Shown one piece after another: positions 774 to 23,903 of a stretch of DNA of 23,903 bases. Numbering within the stretch: the first letter of the stretch is position 1; every line of letters begins with the position of its first letter. Source of the stretch: a virus. The position numbers and the translations under genes are program-made. The DNA lies in IMG/VR virus record IMGVR_UViG_3300030382_000905, positions 1 to 23,903 of that record, one strand, 5' to 3'. Below the pieces are notes generated by a model, which worked only from the letters and a program-made list of their open reading frames with translations, had not been told where the DNA came from and made no database searches.

Positions 774-1204
774 TACTTCCTCGTTAGTGAGCCACCAAAG
801 TATAGTCCAATGATTGAGAATATTGTATGTGATTGGAGTGGTCCTATTACTATCCCAGTCATAGGCATCCACTTAGTTACGTCATAATCACTAGCAAATA
901 TCCACCAACCCTGTGAGCTGGTCTCTATATATCCCATGTATACAGGGATGTCGACAAAGATAGGTGCCATGATTGGCACGACTATGATTGAGAATACACA
1001 CATTAAAGCTATCCATCTTCTGGTATGTTTAGTGTGTGGATCTGAAACTGCTCTTGCCTTATCAGTTTGTCTAGCTGCAAACCTAGCTTGTTGCATCATA
1101 GCTTTCTCTCTATCTGCTTGAGCTTGTGCTTTCTGTGCCATGATAGACATGACTCCACCTAGTACAGTAGACGCTAGCATTGATAGTAATTCCATTGGTA
1201 TCAT
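773..1204 (-). CDS. Membrane protein, holin-like layout
   Basis: The 143-residue product begins MIPMELLSMLASTVLGGVMS. A TTG at 1216 would add four residues, but the ATG at 1202-1204 has GGAG six bases upstream and overlaps the previous stop as ATGA, so it is chosen. There are three hydrophobic segments: the N-terminal one at about residues 3-22, one near 66-88 (WIALMCVFSIIVVPIMAPIF), and a C-terminal one near 117-140. Between the first two lies a charged, Gln/Ala-rich cytoplasmic helix. This layout resembles three-segment holins (the GTA-holin type), and it lies after the tail genes, where T7-like phages place lysis genes. No endolysin is visible in the window, so a holin role is inference. 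A structural membrane-interacting protein is the main alternative. Confidence 0.6.
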   Translation of the reverse strand: MIPMELLSMLASTVLGGVMSIMAQKAQAQADREKAMMQQARFAARQTDKARAVSDPHTKHTRRWIALMCVFSIIVVPIMAPIFVDIPVYMGYIETSSQGWWIFASDYDVTKWMPMTGIVIGPLQSHTIFSIIGLYFGGSLTRK

Positions 1205-1485
1205 TTCCATCTCCAAATTTTTGATATTGATACAGAATTACCTCTATTATTTTTTTCAAATCTTAAATCAAGCCCTTGATTATTGTAACTAGCTGATGTC
1301 TTACCAGCTCCAACACGAAACATTAAGCTGTTGTTATCATTTCCTGTATGGATGACATGCCTTAATACCACACTTTTTATTGCTTTTTTGAAAGGTTTAT
1401 TATTACTAAATCTACTAGCATAATTCATATCTACATCAGAAAAAGATTCGCTATAACCCTTACCATTTGATTTAATTTTTTTCAT
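1201..1485 (-). CDS. Small protein of unknown function
   Basis: A 94-residue, Lys/Asn/Ser-rich protein with no recognised family. It has AGGAGA a few bases before the ATG at 1483-1485, and the upstream gene's TAG stop lies inside that ribosome binding site. Its end overlaps the next start as ATGA, which supports translation of the whole frame. The second half (FRVGAGKTSASYNNQGLD, then LRFEKNN and SVSISKIWRWK) alternates polar and hydrophobic residues like a small beta structure. There are no signal peptide and no cysteines. Position between the adhesin genes and the membrane/secretion genes would suit either a tail-tip component or a small lysis-related protein. No choice between these can be made from the sequence. 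Confidence 0.6.
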   Translation of the reverse strand: MKKIKSNGKGYSESFSDVDMNYASRFSNNKPFKKAIKSVVLRHVIHTGNDNNSLMFRVGAGKTSASYNNQGLDLRFEKNNRGNSVSISKIWRWK

Positions 1486-18360: not shown

Positions 18361-19944
18361 CTATTGTTCAGGAGGCGCTTCCTCCTGTGGTTGTTGTTGT
18401 TGTTGTTGCATCATCTGTTGCATTTGTTGTGCAGCAGCTTGCATTTCTTCTTCTGAACGCACCAGATGTTCTGGAACGCCTAGTTTTTTAGCTACATACT
18501 TAGCAACTTCAATCTGATTAACCAATATATTGGCTAATTCTGGACCAACTCTGCCTTGTATCATACCTAAAAATCTATCAACGGTAGCAACATCACCTTG
18601 TTGTTGAGCTTGTGCTAGTGGAGAAGTAGATTGTACCTTGATTTCTCTACCATTTATCTTAGGAAGCTTAATTCTTCCTTGTTTTTTAAGGATAAATACT
18701 ATCCTTTGTAGCACTGGAACTACCAATTCTGCCTGTAATCTGCCGAAAGCAGCACCTATTTGACGAGATAAATCAGCCTGTCTCTCTGCTACTTCTGTTG
18801 CAGACATAGGTGTTTTCTCATTAGGGTTGCCTAACATATCGTTATATAAAGCTTTTTTAATATTGGTTCTCATATCTTGTAAAACTAAATCAGAGATATT
18901 AAAGTTACCAGCAGATGGCACAGGAGTTAATCCTTGTGATCCAGCAGCTTTAGGAATAATAGTCCCCGGAATTAAAGATATGTTATCTACATTAATAACT
19001 CCATCATCTTCTACTTGGTACATTCCTGATATAGACATCTGAGCGTTCTCTAAAATCAACTCTACTACTAGATTTGCTGTCTTAACTGCTGGCATTGCCA
19101 ACATTAATGGACCTCTTCCATAGGTTTCTCCACTACATTTGCTCCATCTATACACTAAATATGGGTTAGAACCCTGTCCTTTATAGACTTCTTCATAGAT
19201 TTTATGCTCATATAGCTTAGAAATAACACAGAAATGATGCTCTTCTTCCTTTAAATTATAGTAATTTCTGTATACTACCTCTATAATTTCGCATTCTTTG
19301 TCTGGGTTTTTCTCTATATCTGTTATCATTTTCTCTGTAAACATGCCTTTTGGATAGGCAACATACAATTCTTTGTTCTTAATCATTCTTCTTCTAAAGA
19401 TGTGATCTACTTTATCATCATGTCCAGATGTCATTGCTGCTTGTGGCAATGGTATTGCTTTGAATTTTATAGGTTGTACAGCATCTCCCTCTTCTACTAA
19501 AAGAATGCCCGTGCCTAATGCTATGTCTAAAAATGACTCATGTATTTCTTGTGAGAAGTTAGAGTTTTGTAGTATTTCAAATATGTAATTGGTTACTTCG
19601 TCTAGCATTAGATTAACTTCTTTTTGATTTTCTTTAGGAATCTCTGTCCCAGCTACAAAATCAGCCCATCTAGCGTAGTTTGGTACTATTCCAGACTGTA
19701 ATCTGGATGCAAATTCTTGTACTCCAACAACAGCAGTCTCGTCAAATATCCTATCTGTACGTCTTCTTCCTTGATTTTCTTGGTAAAAACTCTCTCTTTG
19801 AGGCAAAGCATATTCATAACACTCCTCATAAGTATTAGCCCACTGTTGCTTAATAGTTTTGGCATGTTCATATCTTGCCAATAATTGTTTAATGGGTGAG
19901 GCTTGAGGAGACACCTCTGCTGCTGTATTGGTTTCTAATAACAC
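18361..19944 (-). CDS. Portal (head-tail connector) protein
   Basis: A 527-residue protein, close to T7 gp8 (536). The N-terminus has the family motifs WANTYEECYEYALPQRESFY, RTDRIFDETAVVGVQEFASR and LQSGIVPNYARWADF. Later come ALGTGILLVEEGD, then YLVYRWSKCSGETYGRGPLM with an A-x-x-x-K-x-x-N helix, TPMSATEVAERQADLSRQIG and LVVPVLQRIVFIL. The C-terminus is Met/Gln-rich with a six-Gln run. It starts with GTG at 19942-19944. GGAG lies six bases upstream, inside the end of the preceding gene, and no better ATG is near. The ring of twelve forms the DNA entry and exit pore and joins to the gp11-like adaptor. Confidence 0.92.
   Translation of the reverse strand: MLLETNTAAEVSPQASPIKQLLARYEHAKTIKQQWANTYEECYEYALPQRESFYQENQGRRRTDRIFDETAVVGVQEFASRLQSGIVPNYARWADFVAGTEIPKENQKEVNLMLDEVTNYIFEILQNSNFSQEIHESFLDIALGTGILLVEEGDAVQPIKFKAIPLPQAAMTSGHDDKVDHIFRRRMIKNKELYVAYPKGMFTEKMITDIEKNPDKECEIIEVVYRNYYNLKEEEHHFCVISKLYEHKIYEEVYKGQGSNPYLVYRWSKCSGETYGRGPLMLAMPAVKTANLVVELILENAQMSISGMYQVEDDGVINVDNISLIPGTIIPKAAGSQGLTPVPSAGNFNISDLVLQDMRTNIKKALYNDMLGNPNEKTPMSATEVAERQADLSRQIGAAFGRLQAELVVPVLQRIVFILKKQGRIKLPKINGREIKVQSTSPLAQAQQQGDVATVDRFLGMIQGRVGPELANILVNQIEVAKYVAKKLGVPEHLVRSEEEMQAAAQQMQQMMQQQQQQPQEEAPPEQ
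18391..18408 (-). repeat. CAA triplet run coding six Gln
   Basis: Six perfect CAA triplets (TTG on the plus strand) code for six consecutive Gln in the Met/Gln-rich portal tail. Such a run can change length by slippage, and the tail is not expected to be part of the portal fold. Confidence 0.9.
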
Positions 19945-19957
19945 ACTATGCTCCTAA
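19941..19957 (-). repeat. Junction repeat, copy 2 (before portal)
   Basis: The 17-base sequence TTAGGAGCATAGTGTGT encodes the last residues LGA and the stop of the 19946-20221 gene. It also supplies the GGAG ribosome binding site and the GTG start of the portal gene. It is identical to the copy at 20218-20234. Confidence 0.9.
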
Positions 19958-20221
19958 AGTTTGCTTGCTCATTAAACTTTTACTCATCATTGTTTGTTTG
20001 TTTGTTGTATTTTTTGATTGCATTTTCTTTTTGTAATTTATATTGGCAATAGTATTATTGTTTTTAGTTTCGCCTTTATCAGTAACTGTACTAGATTTAA
20101 CTCTAGAAGCAACATCGTTTTTCTTTTTTTGATTAGTTAATCGAATAGGAAAAGGTGTATCCGGATATTTTTTCCCCCACTCAGATACTAATTTCTGATG
20201 TTTTGGATTAGGACTACACAC
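19946..20221 (-). CDS. Small basic protein, MCS...MSKxTLGA type
   Basis: A 91-residue Lys/Asn/Thr-rich protein with no recognised fold. It begins MCSPNPKHQKLVSEWGKKYP and ends MMSKSLMSKQTLGA. The start is GTG at 20219-20221, six bases after GGAG, and no ATG fits near it. The first three and last eight residues resemble those of the gene just upstream (MCS, MSKxTLGA), so the pair probably arose by duplication, with the middle region having diverged. T7 has small basic virion proteins near the portal (gp6.7, which also starts MCF, and gp7.3), so a minor head or ejected protein is plausible. This is inference from position and composition only. Confidence 0.65.
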   Translation of the reverse strand: MCSPNPKHQKLVSEWGKKYPDTPFPIRLTNQKKKNDVASRVKSSTVTDKGETKNNNTIANINYKKKMQSKNTTNKQTMMSKSLMSKQTLGA

Positions 20222-20234
20222 ACTATGCTCCTAA
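20218..20234 (-). repeat. Junction repeat, copy 1
   Basis: The 17-base sequence TTAGGAGCATAGTGTGT ends the 20223-20489 gene (LGA-stop) and provides the GGAG and GTG start of the next gene. The identical copy lies 277 bases further along the transcript, at 19941-19957. Confidence 0.9.
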
Positions 20235-20489
20235 TGTATCTTTACTCATAATTGATGAGTCTAATGCAAATCCACTTCCGCCTTGTCTGGTTCCAGTTAG
20301 AAGACTTTTTCTTCCTCTTTTCCCGTATACAGAAGCAACTCTTTGTTCATATGCCTCGTCTTTAAGTTTGGTTTTTTCTGCTAAAGCATCTTGTCTAGCA
20401 CGTTTACGAGCATCTTTTGCGCTTTCACTCTCTACTTCTGGTGGTGGTGGCGGTGGTGGTGCTGGTCTACTTCCTCCAAAACTACACAT
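20223..20489 (-). CDS. Small proline-run protein, gp7.3-like
   Basis: An 88-residue protein. An ATG at 20507 is in frame, but the ATG at 20487-20489 has AAAGGAG eight bases upstream and does not overlap the terminase gene, so it is chosen. The protein starts MCSFGGSRPAP with a run of seven prolines (11-17), followed by an Arg/Lys/Glu/Ala helix (22-52). GKRGRKSLLTGTRQGGSGFA comes next, and MSKDTLGA ends it. The GRKSLxx...GGxG part recalls the T7 gp7.3 C-terminus (GKKSLSVARSSGGG, from memory) and similar proteins coded beside podovirus portals. Those are minor virion or tail-assembly proteins. It lies one base after the terminase stop and before its presumed paralogue. Confidence 0.65.
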   Translation of the reverse strand: MCSFGGSRPAPPPPPPPEVESESAKDARKRARQDALAEKTKLKDEAYEQRVASVYGKRGRKSLLTGTRQGGSGFALDSSIMSKDTLGA

Positions 20490-20490
20490 A

Positions 20491-21996
20491 TCATCTTCTC
20501 CTTTCATAAATTGTTTTCGACTTTAAATCAAAAACATTAAAATCTTTTTTAGCTACCCTAGGTTTACTAGTTTTTTGACCAATAGTCAATGATCTTCCCT
20601 CCCCAGCGCCCAATAACATATACTGTAAAGCATCATGTATATGAGAAAATCTATTCTTATTAGGTTTCTCATCGTAGCGTTCCCCTGATACTTGCATTCT
20701 TCTGTAATGATATCCGCCATCAAATCCTTTGATAATGTTTATACATTTCGGATCTATCAATAGCCCAGAATCTCCATCTATCATTCTTGATAATGTAGCA
20801 TTAACACTTTCTAATCTTAATGTAACATCGTTGCTTGGTGCTGGTCTGGCACTAATACCACGCCCCCTAAGTATTTGAAATGGTGTTGATTCATCGGTCT
20901 GCGCCCTGTGATCACCAGCCGGATCACCGAATATCACAAAATTTCTAGGCATATACTCTGACATTTTCTGTTTCATAAGGTCACTGAAGCGTAATATACC
21001 CATATCTTCAGCTACTAACTCATCAATGATAAGCCATCTGCCTCTAACTCTTTGTCCAAATACACAGGCTGGAGTCAATCCAAAGTCTATTCCTACGTAT
21101 ATAGGAACATCTTTCATGATTGCTACATCAGATTTGGCAATATGAACATCTCTTCTAAACATTTCATACACAGGTTTTCCATCCTCAATCTGTCCTAACC
21201 TGTTTAAAACATAGACATCAATCCATGATTTGCCTTTACCTCGAATGATATTAGAGTAATAACATTCTGTTAAATTCTTTCCGTTTTCTTTTTTAGGGTT
21301 ATCCTCATATGTTTCTAGATGTCCATCAGTGTCCATGATTTCTTTCATTGCTGGAGGCTGGTTATAGAATCTCCAATTGTCTGGTTTGACTAACATCTTA
21401 ACTTCTTGTTTGGTAATATAATCAGGAATAACTGCCTCTCCTGATAGGATTGACCACCAATGGTCTGTATCTGGAGGGTTAGTATCACAGATAACGCCAT
21501 ACCAAGTAGGTCCACCATCTCTCATAGAGGGATATCTGCCTACTCTCATAGTACAAGCATCGACAATTGACTTGGGAATCTCCCTAGCTTCATTGATCCA
21601 GACACCTGTAAGCTCAAGTGACAATAGTTTTTTCATATCTTCTGGTCTATCGAGTGCTAAAAAGATAACTTCTAAATCTAATTCTCCCTTTTTTATGTGG
21701 TGAGTATAGGGAACAGACCAGCCAAAATTACCCCAGTCTTCTTCTGGGAACCAATCTAACCAAGTCTTAATCGTTGTAGTTTTAAGCTGTGGATTGGTAT
21801 TACGAATGACAGCCCATCTAGATTTTCTAATGCCCTCGCTATTTTTCTTTTGAGTTAAGGCTCTTCTTAGTATTTCAATACAACAACAAACCGACTTGCC
21901 GCTTCCTACTGGACCACGCAACCCTCTAAAAAAGGATTCATCTTTCATAAACTGCTTAATTATATCGCCATCTGGCTTATAATTTAATGATGCCAT
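20491..21996 (-). CDS. terL: Terminase large subunit
   Basis: A 501-residue packaging motor with ATPase and nuclease parts. Walker A is GPVGSGKS (28-35), Walker B is LTGVWINEAR (129-138) with catalytic Glu136, and the coupling motif is DTNP (171-174). The RNase H-like nuclease has its three acids in YVGIDFGLTPACVFG (Asp304), VIFGDPAGDHR (Asp358) and HIHDALQYMLLGAG (Asp455). All key residues are present, so it should be active. It is shorter than T7 gp19 (586). The ATG overlaps the preceding small gene by 20 bases and has no good Shine-Dalgarno, so coupled translation is likely. Unlike in T7, where it lies at the far end, the gene here precedes portal and head genes. Confidence 0.96.
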   Translation of the reverse strand: MASLNYKPDGDIIKQFMKDESFFRGLRGPVGSGKSVCCCIEILRRALTQKKNSEGIRKSRWAVIRNTNPQLKTTTIKTWLDWFPEEDWGNFGWSVPYTHHIKKGELDLEVIFLALDRPEDMKKLLSLELTGVWINEAREIPKSIVDACTMRVGRYPSMRDGGPTWYGVICDTNPPDTDHWWSILSGEAVIPDYITKQEVKMLVKPDNWRFYNQPPAMKEIMDTDGHLETYEDNPKKENGKNLTECYYSNIIRGKGKSWIDVYVLNRLGQIEDGKPVYEMFRRDVHIAKSDVAIMKDVPIYVGIDFGLTPACVFGQRVRGRWLIIDELVAEDMGILRFSDLMKQKMSEYMPRNFVIFGDPAGDHRAQTDESTPFQILRGRGISARPAPSNDVTLRLESVNATLSRMIDGDSGLLIDPKCINIIKGFDGGYHYRRMQVSGERYDEKPNKNRFSHIHDALQYMLLGAGEGRSLTIGQKTSKPRVAKKDFNVFDLKSKTIYERRR

Positions 21997-22201
21997 CGTC
22001 TGTAACTACCTTTTTATTAACCACCATTTTATACAATTGCTCTAATGTTTGTGGATTAAGCGTCTCAAGGACCTTATCTGCCTCATAATCGCTTACAAAT
22101 TCTTTTGGATAGTCTTTCATGTACCGAAGTTTAACGGCTTGTCTGAGCTTCTTAAGACCATCAAATGAGTATTTATTGAGTTTCTCTATTGAGTGTGCCA
22201 T
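21977..22201 (-). CDS. Small protein before TerL, candidate terminase small subunit
   Basis: A 74-residue helical protein. An upstream ATG at 22222 is in frame, but the ATG at 22199-22201 overlaps the previous stop as TAATG and has GGAGG about 14 bases before it, so it is chosen. It reads MAHSIEKLNKYSFDGLKKLR, then QAVKLRYMKDYP, ADKVLETLNPQTLEQLYKMV: two or three amphipathic helices rich in Lys and Leu. T7 gp18 (89 residues) has a similar size and also precedes its large terminase. No helix-turn-helix is obvious. Position supports a small terminase; sequence alone does not prove it. Confidence 0.5.
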   Translation of the reverse strand: MAHSIEKLNKYSFDGLKKLRQAVKLRYMKDYPKEFVSDYEADKVLETLNPQTLEQLYKMVVNKKVVTDDGIIKL

Positions 22202-22947
22202 TAGTATCTTTCTTTCCTCCATCCGCCTCGCATTAAATAATGTGTCTGTTTTATTTTTTCCGTATCCATTGATATTTTTTTCAATGGTATTTTCACAGAT
22301 TTATTTAATAAACTTTTACTAAGTGGACCATGAAAACCTTGTTCCCAGATTTGCTTGTTTCCAAACATTTTAGACTGATTTCCCAGCAAAAACACCTTTG
22401 CGCGTGGAATACCTTTTTCTAGATGTGCAGCTAACATTTCTTTTTGATTGAGTGTTACTTTCCTCAATTCTCCTCCGCCTTTATTAGCAATATTTATCCA
22501 TGCCTGGCTATATGCTTTACGATCATCTAGAACTTTTGGTAGTTTATCTAATTTTATTTTAGATACTACGCCATAAGGCATAGTATATCTTATTGCATAA
22601 TCTTTTTTATCAGTAAACCATTTATCATATTTAGCTCCCTTTAAAGATGTAGGATATTTTTCCCCTTTTACGCTGCCACTGTACAAAGTCCATTTTCTTT
22701 TTGGTACACCAATTGCTTTTCGTATAGCTTGTTTTGCTTCTATCGGGTGCATCTTTCCGAGAGTACTAATTTTTTTAATTCCTCCTCTCAACAAACTAAT
22801 GCCTCCTTTTACAAAACCAAGACCTCCTATTGCATAAGAACCATACTCTAATCCTTTATAAATATTAGCAACATTGCGATTAGTAATAGCTATTTCTTCT
22901 GCTGTTGCTGGGTTTGCTATGGTTCTTTTAGGTAATAGATTAGCCAT
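22201..22947 (-). CDS. Protein with possible ADP-ribosyltransferase-like core, copy B
   Basis: A 248-residue basic protein of unrecognised family. Residues 30-60 are Gly-rich and hydrophobic (YGSYAIGGLGFVKGGISLLR), possibly membrane-active. Residues 86-133 read KWTLYSGSVKGEKYPTS ... KWFTDKKDYAIRYT ... VVSKIKL, which is strand-loop-strand with a W(F/Y)T-x-x-x-x-YA helix as in ADP-ribosyltransferase folds. The YRG Arg typical of such enzymes is Ser here (LYSG), which would weaken catalysis. The gene upstream shows the same pattern with LYRG, suggesting paralogues. A Lys-rich C-terminus includes QKEMLAAHLEKGIPRAKVFL. It is coupled to both neighbours by TAATG. A host-directed or virion role is open. 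Confidence 0.5.
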   Translation of the reverse strand: MANLLPKRTIANPATAEEIAITNRNVANIYKGLEYGSYAIGGLGFVKGGISLLRGGIKKISTLGKMHPIEAKQAIRKAIGVPKRKWTLYSGSVKGEKYPTSLKGAKYDKWFTDKKDYAIRYTMPYGVVSKIKLDKLPKVLDDRKAYSQAWINIANKGGGELRKVTLNQKEMLAAHLEKGIPRAKVFLLGNQSKMFGNKQIWEQGFHGPLSKSLLNKSVKIPLKKISMDTEKIKQTHYLMRGGWRKERY

Positions 22948-23492
22948 TATTTCTTAACTGCCTTTATTTTGTTTATACCCTCTTGCCATTTAAGCATACT
23001 TTTGTAATCAAATAGTTTTGCCTTTTTTGTTATGCTTGCTGGCATTACGCCTATAATCATATCTGGCATCGTTGGATCGGGTGTCTCTAAATAGGAGCCT
23101 TTTTCAATATCTTTCATCTTAACATTCTGGATTCTTTTCATAAGAGATCCTTTCCCTGTGCCTTTATAAAATTGTGCATACCATGCTTTAGACGCATACC
23201 AGCGACCGCTCATAGGAAGAGCGCCGCCAAGATTATCTTTAGCTAATGTTTTCCCGTATAGTTTATCTTGCCCTCGGTATAAAGTTACCGTGTTTACATC
23301 AAATAAATTCTTAGGTACGTATTGTCCTTTGTTAAGAGCCTTAGCTACCTTTGCTCCCTTATAGGCATTGTATGCCCGCATACCGCCCTTATAAGCTGCC
23401 CCAATAATTCTAGCCCCCGGGTGTATGGATAAGAGTGTTGCCGCTACGGTGTAAGGATTTTCTTTAACATATTGGAAAGCTTGGTTTATCAT
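22947..23492 (-). CDS. Protein with possible ADP-ribosyltransferase-like core, copy A
   Basis: A 181-residue basic protein. Residues 10-50 contain a weakly hydrophobic Ala/Gly stretch (YTVAATLLSIHPGARIIGAA, then AYKGGMRAYNAYKGAK). Residues 68-109 read TVTLYRGQDKLYGK ... MSGRWYASKAWYAQFY, then SLMKRIQNVKMKDIEKG. LYRG with Arg73, followed by a GRWYASxxxYA strand-helix, fits the order seen in Arg-type ADP-ribosyltransferases. The usual STS is not exact and the catalytic Glu is unclear (Glu130 or Glu136 are candidates). The ATG overlaps the 58-residue gene by ATGA, and the stop overlaps the next gene by TAATG. Alternatives are a minor virion protein of unrelated fold or an inactive relative. Confidence 0.5.
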   Translation of the reverse strand: MINQAFQYVKENPYTVAATLLSIHPGARIIGAAYKGGMRAYNAYKGAKVAKALNKGQYVPKNLFDVNTVTLYRGQDKLYGKTLAKDNLGGALPMSGRWYASKAWYAQFYKGTGKGSLMKRIQNVKMKDIEKGSYLETPDPTMPDMIIGVMPASITKKAKLFDYKSMLKWQEGINKIKAVKK

Positions 23493-23665
23493 TCACTATC
23501 ATAAACGCCTTGAGCCATCTTAGATGCTGCTTCTCTAGAATGTCCACGTTGCATTTTAGCCTCAATGTATTGTTTAACCTTTGTATTCCTTGCCTCTCGC
23601 TTTCTTCTAGCTTCCATATCCAATATCTTTTTTACTCTTTTATTTATTTTAGATAGGTCTTTCAT
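23489..23665 (-). CDS. 58-residue basic helical protein
   Basis: A short frame, MKDLSKINKRVKKILDMEAR through to QRGHSREAASKMAQGVYDSE. It is strongly basic in the first half (Lys/Arg-rich) and predicted helical throughout. The ATG at 23663-23665 overlaps the previous stop as TAATG, and its TGA overlaps the next ATG as ATGA. It therefore fills the space between two genes with no spare base, strong evidence that it is translated. No family was recognised. A nucleic acid-binding or packaging accessory role would fit its charge and place near terminase, but this is a guess. No signal peptide or membrane segment. Confidence 0.7.
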   Translation of the reverse strand: MKDLSKINKRVKKILDMEARRKREARNTKVKQYIEAKMQRGHSREAASKMAQGVYDSE

Positions 23666-23903
23666 TACTTTAAATTTAATAATCTATTGAATTCTTTGTC
23701 TGTAAAGTTTTTAGATTTTTCAAGTAGTTTTTTTAGTTTTGAGTCATCTTGTTTAACAGGAGATGATTGTGATGTTGCATAATCATATCCTTTTACCAAT
23801 CCTAACGTATGTAGTGGTATTTTAACAAGAGCAGTAGCGCCACTGCCTATGTCTCTTATTAGTTTTTTCTCTGCGATAATAGCCTTATTAGCGTCTCTAA
23901 CGG
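23665..23903 (-). CDS. Unknown protein, C-terminal part (runs off window)
   Basis: The frame is open from the window edge to the TAA at 23665-23667, giving the last 78 residues or so. It reads VRDANKAIIAEKKLIRDIGS, then GATALVKIPLHTLGLVKGYDYA, a Ser/Gln/Pro spacer, and a Lys/Leu-rich end (DSKLKKLLEKSKNFTDKEF, then NRLLNLK). The Gly/Ala/Leu segment is similar in character to the Gly-rich hydrophobic stretches of the two ADP-ribosyltransferase-like proteins downstream. Its stop overlaps the 58-residue gene start as TAATG, making it the first visible member of this coupled block. The true start and the main domain lie outside the window, so no function is given. Confidence 0.6.
   Translation of the reverse strand, partial: VRDANKAIIAEKKLIRDIGSGATALVKIPLHTLGLVKGYDYATSQSSPVKQDDSKLKKLLEKSKNFTDKEFNRLLNLK

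Follow-up and report, generated by a model that had tools for sequence, protein, structure and literature searches.

Gene content and organization of the locus

Few ocean viruses are as abundant as the phages of SAR11, most of whose genes have no assigned role. The virus contig studied here (IMGVR_UViG_3300030382_000905, 23.9 kb; its whole stretch of 23,903 nucleotides is called the window below) likely derives from a phage with a SAR11 host, since its terminase large subunit (TerL) is 79% identical to that of Pelagibacter phage EXVC031P Hodr. On the minus strand throughout, terL is followed by genes for the portal, the capsid, the tail, and then an internal virion protein of T7-like type. Two open reading frames, A and B, lie shortly before terL, and in related phages the other side of the same interval is bounded by terS, which is absent from this record because the contig ends first. 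Abbreviating ADP-ribosyltransferase as ART, we describe the region as follows:

20491..21996, minus strand: TerL, terminase large subunit
21977..22201, minus strand: conserved 74-aa ORF (MAHSIEKLNKYSF...), from the ORF list, at the terL-side edge of the variable island
22201..22947, minus strand: ORF B, 248 aa, net charge +31; N1-type N-module, linker, and ART-like C1 domain with WTLYSG
22258..22704, minus strand: B residues 82-230, the putative ART-like C1 domain (based on relatives, VIA matches, and hhalign), with the codon of S90 (ART Arg/His position) at 22678-22680
22807..22947, minus strand: B residues 1-47, swappable N-module N1 (LLPKRxIxNPATxEEIxxTNRNVxxIYKxLExGSYAxGGxG; leave-one-out HMM E = 1e-26)
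22947..23492, minus strand: ORF A, 181 aa, net charge +20; N2-type N-module and ART-like C-domain with VTLYRG
22983..23294, minus strand: A residues 67-170, the putative ART-like C-domain (VIA-align ART matches; alignment A11), with the codon of R73 at 23274-23276
23370..23492, minus strand: A residues 1-41, swappable N-module N2 (YVKENPxxxAxTxxSIHPxxRxxxxAYKxG; leave-one-out HMM E = 2.2e-8)
23489..23665, minus strand: 58-aa basic ORF (MKDLSKINKRVKK...), directly upstream of A
23665..23901, minus strand: further island ORF from the ORF list, C-terminal end only, cut by the contig end

The preliminary description of this DNA had proposed a tandem of ART-like genes, and both reading frames and their motifs were confirmed (VTLYRG and RWYASKAWYAQFY in A, WTLYSG and KWFTDKKDYAIRY in B). 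The tandem stands in that the two genes overlap, but the pair was seen only in this record. Three consecutive junctions consist of overlaps (ATGA, where the stop of the 58-aa ORF overlaps the start of A; TAATG between A and B; and TAATG between B and the 74-aa ORF), which looks like the pattern of a tightly coupled late operon. A small ORF similar to the 58-aa ORF is present in many relatives, and the 74-aa ORF is without a confident Pfam family. Searching window positions 19900-23903 against Rfam gave no match, and the NCBIfam and PADLOC searches gave no meaningful match.

Relationship of A and B to each other and to a third subfamily

Sequence comparisons place both A and B in real gene families, with an N-module common to relatives in the case of A (leave-one-out E = 2e-8) and with relatives of 63, 50, and 37% identity and dN below dS in the case of B. 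Direct paralogy of A and B, as suggested initially, was not borne out (BLASTP E = 1.2). The B-type domains (C1) are homologous to a third subfamily, C2, as judged by hhalign (95%, E = 2.5e-8), and locus L033 forms a bridge that matches both HMMs, B-type and C2 (1.5e-9 and 4.9e-7). A itself is a borderline C2 relative, scoring 10.2 bits against a maximum of 10.7 among 995 shuffles of A (1/995 as good) and P = 0.004 in hhalign. The core shared in the alignment consists of TLYxG, xxW(F/Y)(T/A)xxxxAxxY, G(S/E)LxK, and xxGxxP. The basic strand SKIKL, previously assigned as the third motif of B, is not equivalent to its supposed counterpart; alignments and model place the equivalent strand at GELRKVTLNQ (around residues 159-168). 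The N-termini, described as Gly/Ala-rich and possibly membrane-active, are unrelated modules in A and B, and neither protein reaches the hydropathy expected of a clear transmembrane helix (maximum 19-residue KD 1.16 for A and 1.14 for B).

Modular architecture of the terS-terL slot

The modularity of the slot is the clearest and most surprising result of our analysis. Among relatives collected via TerL (n = 80), the terS-terL interval ranges from 187 to 3831 bases in length (45 loci with both genes seen), and at three loci with around 200 bases terS adjoins terL while the cargo genes precede terS. Many unrelated genes occupy the last position ahead of the conserved ORF of 68-74 aa. Two N-modules are recurrent, N1 (LLPKRxIxNPAT...) and N2 (YVKENPxETALTVASIHPAVR...), and N3 (LLPDNRTKYALxKQQ...) is an additional, N1-like one. 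The C1 domain is preceded by N1 (in the window and L005), N2 (L019), or N3 (L044); C2 follows N2 (L008, L029, and L048) or N3 (L039 and L043); and C3, with the motif KVYRGEN, follows N1 (L002) or N2 (L037). The N2 module that begins A precedes other C-domains in relatives, including unrelated, non-ART C-parts (L004, L006, and L019), and residues 3-59 of B are 82% identical in L002, where a different C-domain comes next.

Closely related phages illustrate how these parts are exchanged. L043 and L048 share 98% identity in TerL and 76% in the C-part with only 16% in the N-part, meaning that the N-module was exchanged alone, and L006 and L008 (97.6% in TerL, 80% in the N-part, 18% in the C-part) represent the exchange of the C-domain alone. 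L008 and L010, with 99.4% identical TerL, carry unrelated cargo. N-modules and C-domains therefore recombine like cassettes, and the cargo is replaced rapidly. Common N-modules fused to differing C-domains by recombination are the mark of polymorphic effectors, and this is what we find here. The C-domains are under purifying selection, with dN/dS of about 0.25-0.5.

Relatives of A, B, or C2 were not detected by tblastn in 50,697 phage records, and scans for N2 and C2 across representative bacterial genomes gave no match. A single tblastn match of C3 in the phage records was judged to be due to chance, as was phrog_19838 as a PHROG match of B (E = 0.21).

Evidence for an ART-like fold of the C-domains

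An ART-like fold, as postulated in the preliminary description, received moderate support from ART structural matches to both C-domains and from sub-threshold ART-PolyVal matches of C2 relatives, though the models are poor and no Foldseek match is significant; overall, we consider this fold likely. The AF2 models of A and B have a mean pLDDT of 53 with pTM of 0.40 and 0.46, respectively, and neither gave a Foldseek match at E<=0.001. When the Foldseek candidates were re-aligned with VIA, ART-fold chains accounted for 15 of the 18 rows for A, all within residues 65-176 (VPA0770 with Z 5.7, Tpt1 with 5.6, and TreX with 5.2). In the case of B, ARTs take up the first 17 rows, over about residues 81-230 (Z 2.6-3.7); most of the remaining rows match the N-terminal helix only. 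Both models show a strand order consistent with the split beta-sheet core of ARTs, at a pLDDT of 53 and Z below 6. Because the alignments behind the two models have members in common, the outcomes for A and B partly depend on each other.

The closest known domains seem to be those of ART-PolyVal (PF18760), a family of ART domains found in polyvalent proteins of phages and plasmids such as the virion RNA polymerases of N4-like phages. Five of 13 family members match this Pfam family with a best E-value of 0.002, below the cut-off; the best scores are found in C2 relatives (19.2-20.1 bits compared to a curated cut-off of 31.2 bits), and A and B themselves gave no match. E-values around 0.002 are not proof, since shuffled and reversed controls, without any match to ART-PolyVal, included one unrelated Pfam match at E = 0.0015. 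Used alone, the ART-PolyVal profile selects the right ORF in 3 of 5 viral records, and hhalign against it is weak (23% for C2 and 3% for the pooled family). The likeness lies in the order of motifs (Y[H/R]G, Gx[F/Y/W][F/L]T...AxxYA, and a beta-strand), which is also that of true ART-PolyVal domains from N4-like roseophages (FYHG...GIFLTTRKxxAREYA...SVNVRL), and in the phage context with predicted delivery. Unlike the giant, multidomain ART-PolyVal proteins, those described here are short and have a single domain. A PDB sequence search with the family profile found no match, and a search of BFVD gave weak matches only (best probability 0.90, E = 0.02), several of them in large podovirus proteins.

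Catalytic residues

The Arg and Glu expected to align in active ARTs were not recovered as a pair, with A having the Arg without a clear Glu and B having neither. Neither protein contains a complete ART catalytic triad (R-S/T-E or H-Y-E/D/Q). Of the residues typical of ART-PolyVal (strand-1 His, strand-2 Tyr, and strand-5 Asp), the His is exchanged for Arg or Ser and the Asp is replaced. A keeps the Arg, but Ala stands where motif 2 would have its first Ser/Thr, and the alignment shows no Glu (the nearest Asp is off by one column). All four distinct B-type domains have Ser instead of Arg/His and lack a conserved acidic residue. The C2 relatives all retain Arg and Thr/Ser, and three of the four shown have the Glu. 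From these alignments, C2 relatives would be the best candidates for active enzymes, and A may be a weak or atypical enzyme at best.

A division of labor between an active A and a decoy B, as had been proposed, finds no support and was rejected: Ser is fixed in the four distinct B-type domains, A has Ala in place of its first Ser/Thr, and B-type genes occur without an A-type partner (L005, L019, and L044). Judged by classical criteria, the B-type domains seem to have lost catalysis, but selection maintains them, and binding is therefore the likelier function. B is a conserved domain of ART-like type for which the usual way of using NAD is improbable. Such conserved, apparently dead domains could serve as natural tools for finding the host molecule that is bound by SAR11 phages.

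Proposed role of the cargo proteins and alternative explanations

A possible link to NAD/ADP-ribose also comes from the same slot in a relative. A 583-aa island protein (L010:4063-5814) carries a NADAR-like insert of around 127 aa (PF08719, E = 2.7e-4; phrog_1017, E = 3.5e-11) that is absent from an otherwise very similar protein (L053:4444-5814), which reads as a clean domain insertion or loss. The island cargo has a charge of +11 to +17 per 100 aa, and almost every other window protein lies between -10 and +4. Of the proteins tested beyond the island, only a 94-aa ORF (window 1201-1485; +12.8 per 100 aa) is also strongly basic.

Hints at packaging come from the proximity to terL, the apparent late operon, the strong positive charge of the cargo (virion proteins are acidic or close to neutral), and stretches in other phage proteins that may be remote copies of N2. 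Based on context and strong positive charge, it seems plausible that A and B are packaged and injected into the host. We favor, at roughly even odds (about 0.5), the explanation that A and B belong to a family of swappable, NAD/ADP-ribose-linked cargo proteins that are plausibly packaged and delivered. They would be members of a modular cargo family in a hypervariable terS-terL slot of SAR11-type short-tailed phages, each composed of a short swappable N-module (N2 for A and N1 for B) followed by a C-domain that most likely has an ART fold and may be a remote relative of the ARTs in polyvalent phage proteins. The cargo would be produced late from the packaging operon, enter the head by means of the N-module and/or its strong positive charge, and be delivered alongside the DNA, its point of attack being either a host target or an NAD/ADP-ribose-based defence. 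If the N-modules were packaging signals, cargo could be recognized in many uncultured phages. More tentatively, the whole island may encode virion-delivered polymorphic effectors of SAR11 podoviruses, in which short packaging modules are joined by recombination to a NADAR-like domain, to active ARTs, or to ART-like domains that only bind, for counter-defence or against rival phages.

The strong basicity of every tested cargo protein would also fit internal head or DNA-binding proteins with a structural job like DNA condensation or aid in packaging, their ART-like fold being kept or lost without an enzymatic role. The missing catalytic residues of all four distinct B-type members, the position of the slot next to terL, and the other proteins (DUF6321 and HNH) found there in a distant clade including isolate Hodr are in line with this explanation. 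However, complete turnover between phages with 99% identical TerL is rare for structural proteins, the C2 domains retain Arg, Thr/Ser, and mostly Glu, and the NADAR-like domain lies in the same slot; we thus regard a purely structural role as rather unlikely. It appears similarly doubtful that the C-domains have a different small alpha+beta fold with convergent YRG and W(F/Y) motifs: ARTs dominate the VIA lists of both models and make up nearly all matches to the C-domain region, and motif order, spacing, and strand prediction agree with ART-PolyVal members, although sequence and Foldseek searches give no significant ART match, model confidence is low, and the active sites are degenerate.

Finally, the proteins might act late and unpackaged in the producing cell, for host takeover or superinfection exclusion, with N-modules that direct them to the membrane or a partner. 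Hydropathy shows no clear transmembrane helix for such targeting, and ARTs next to terminase genes are usually interpreted as packaged (PMC9503650), which makes this improbable despite the late-operon position with overlapping genes, the Gly/Ala-rich N-modules with helices in the models, and a diversity consistent with phage-phage competition.

Comparison with known systems

The C2 domains resemble T4 Alt, ModA, and ModB (Alt/VIP2-type ARTs) in their R-S-E-like motif layout, and T4 Alt is packaged and injected. Unlike these enzymes, the proteins described here are much smaller, give no detectable sequence match to them, and miss key residues in A and B.

Packaged phage ARTs and exchangeable C-terminal effectors have already been proposed in studies of polyvalent proteins (PMC5512222), of MuF toxins (PMC5576092), and of viral NAD+/ADP-ribose functions, where ARTs and NADAR beside terminase and head genes were suggested to be packaged (PMC9503650). 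The text of the latter survey does not mention pelagiphages, and our locus adds recombining N-modules and degenerate ART-like domains. The polymorphic MuF toxins of temperate phages similarly join an N-module to an exchangeable C-terminal effector, sometimes an ART, in the DNA-packaging region (PMC5576092). In contrast to MuF, which is encoded after the portal, the genes studied here lie between terS and terL without a recognized immunity gene, and their N-modules are short and absent from Pfam and PHROGs; at E<=10, neither A and B nor the 13 family members matched a MuF domain (PF04233 or PF06152). The hypervariable region of HTVC010P-type pelagiphages lies in virion and tail genes and not in the terS-terL slot (PMC10504331). 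Our search of the openly available literature found no report of this locus. What it adds to the known systems is an ART-like family that is degenerate yet conserved, N-modules of short length, a position between terS and terL, and an occurrence in phages of SAR11 type.

Additional genes related to the slot

Directly upstream of the C3 gene, L002:2268-4001 encodes an island protein of 577 aa in which a second motif may be ART-like (VFYRAQHG...PEWSVTKW...AEVEMIPL). In L034:4816-5814 and L035:4487-5452, N1 is followed by another YRG-type domain (LNVYRGEG...GRYATTDPRRGKMYG...YRIKVSDF) that does not match the C1 or C2 profiles. A partial 482-aa ORF upstream of and adjoining terS (L016:1-1449) matches a PHROG GTP-binding domain (E = 3e-7), and from its motifs we suspect a SLOG-type nucleotide-binding domain. 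In the more distant clade with L071:1791-3351 and Hodr (L084:7431-7829), the slot is occupied by DUF6321, by proteins of EF-hand/dockerin-like and HNH type, and by a conserved protein of 132 aa that has no Pfam family. Possible remote copies of N2, short matches that serve as a lead only, are present in a basic protein beside the adaptor gene of L115 and in a protein of 723 aa (L117:1795-3966), which combines the internal N2-like stretch (NYVKENPVETAATLATLPLGGG) with a strong SLT transglycosylase domain and adjoins a 732-aa protein of unknown family.
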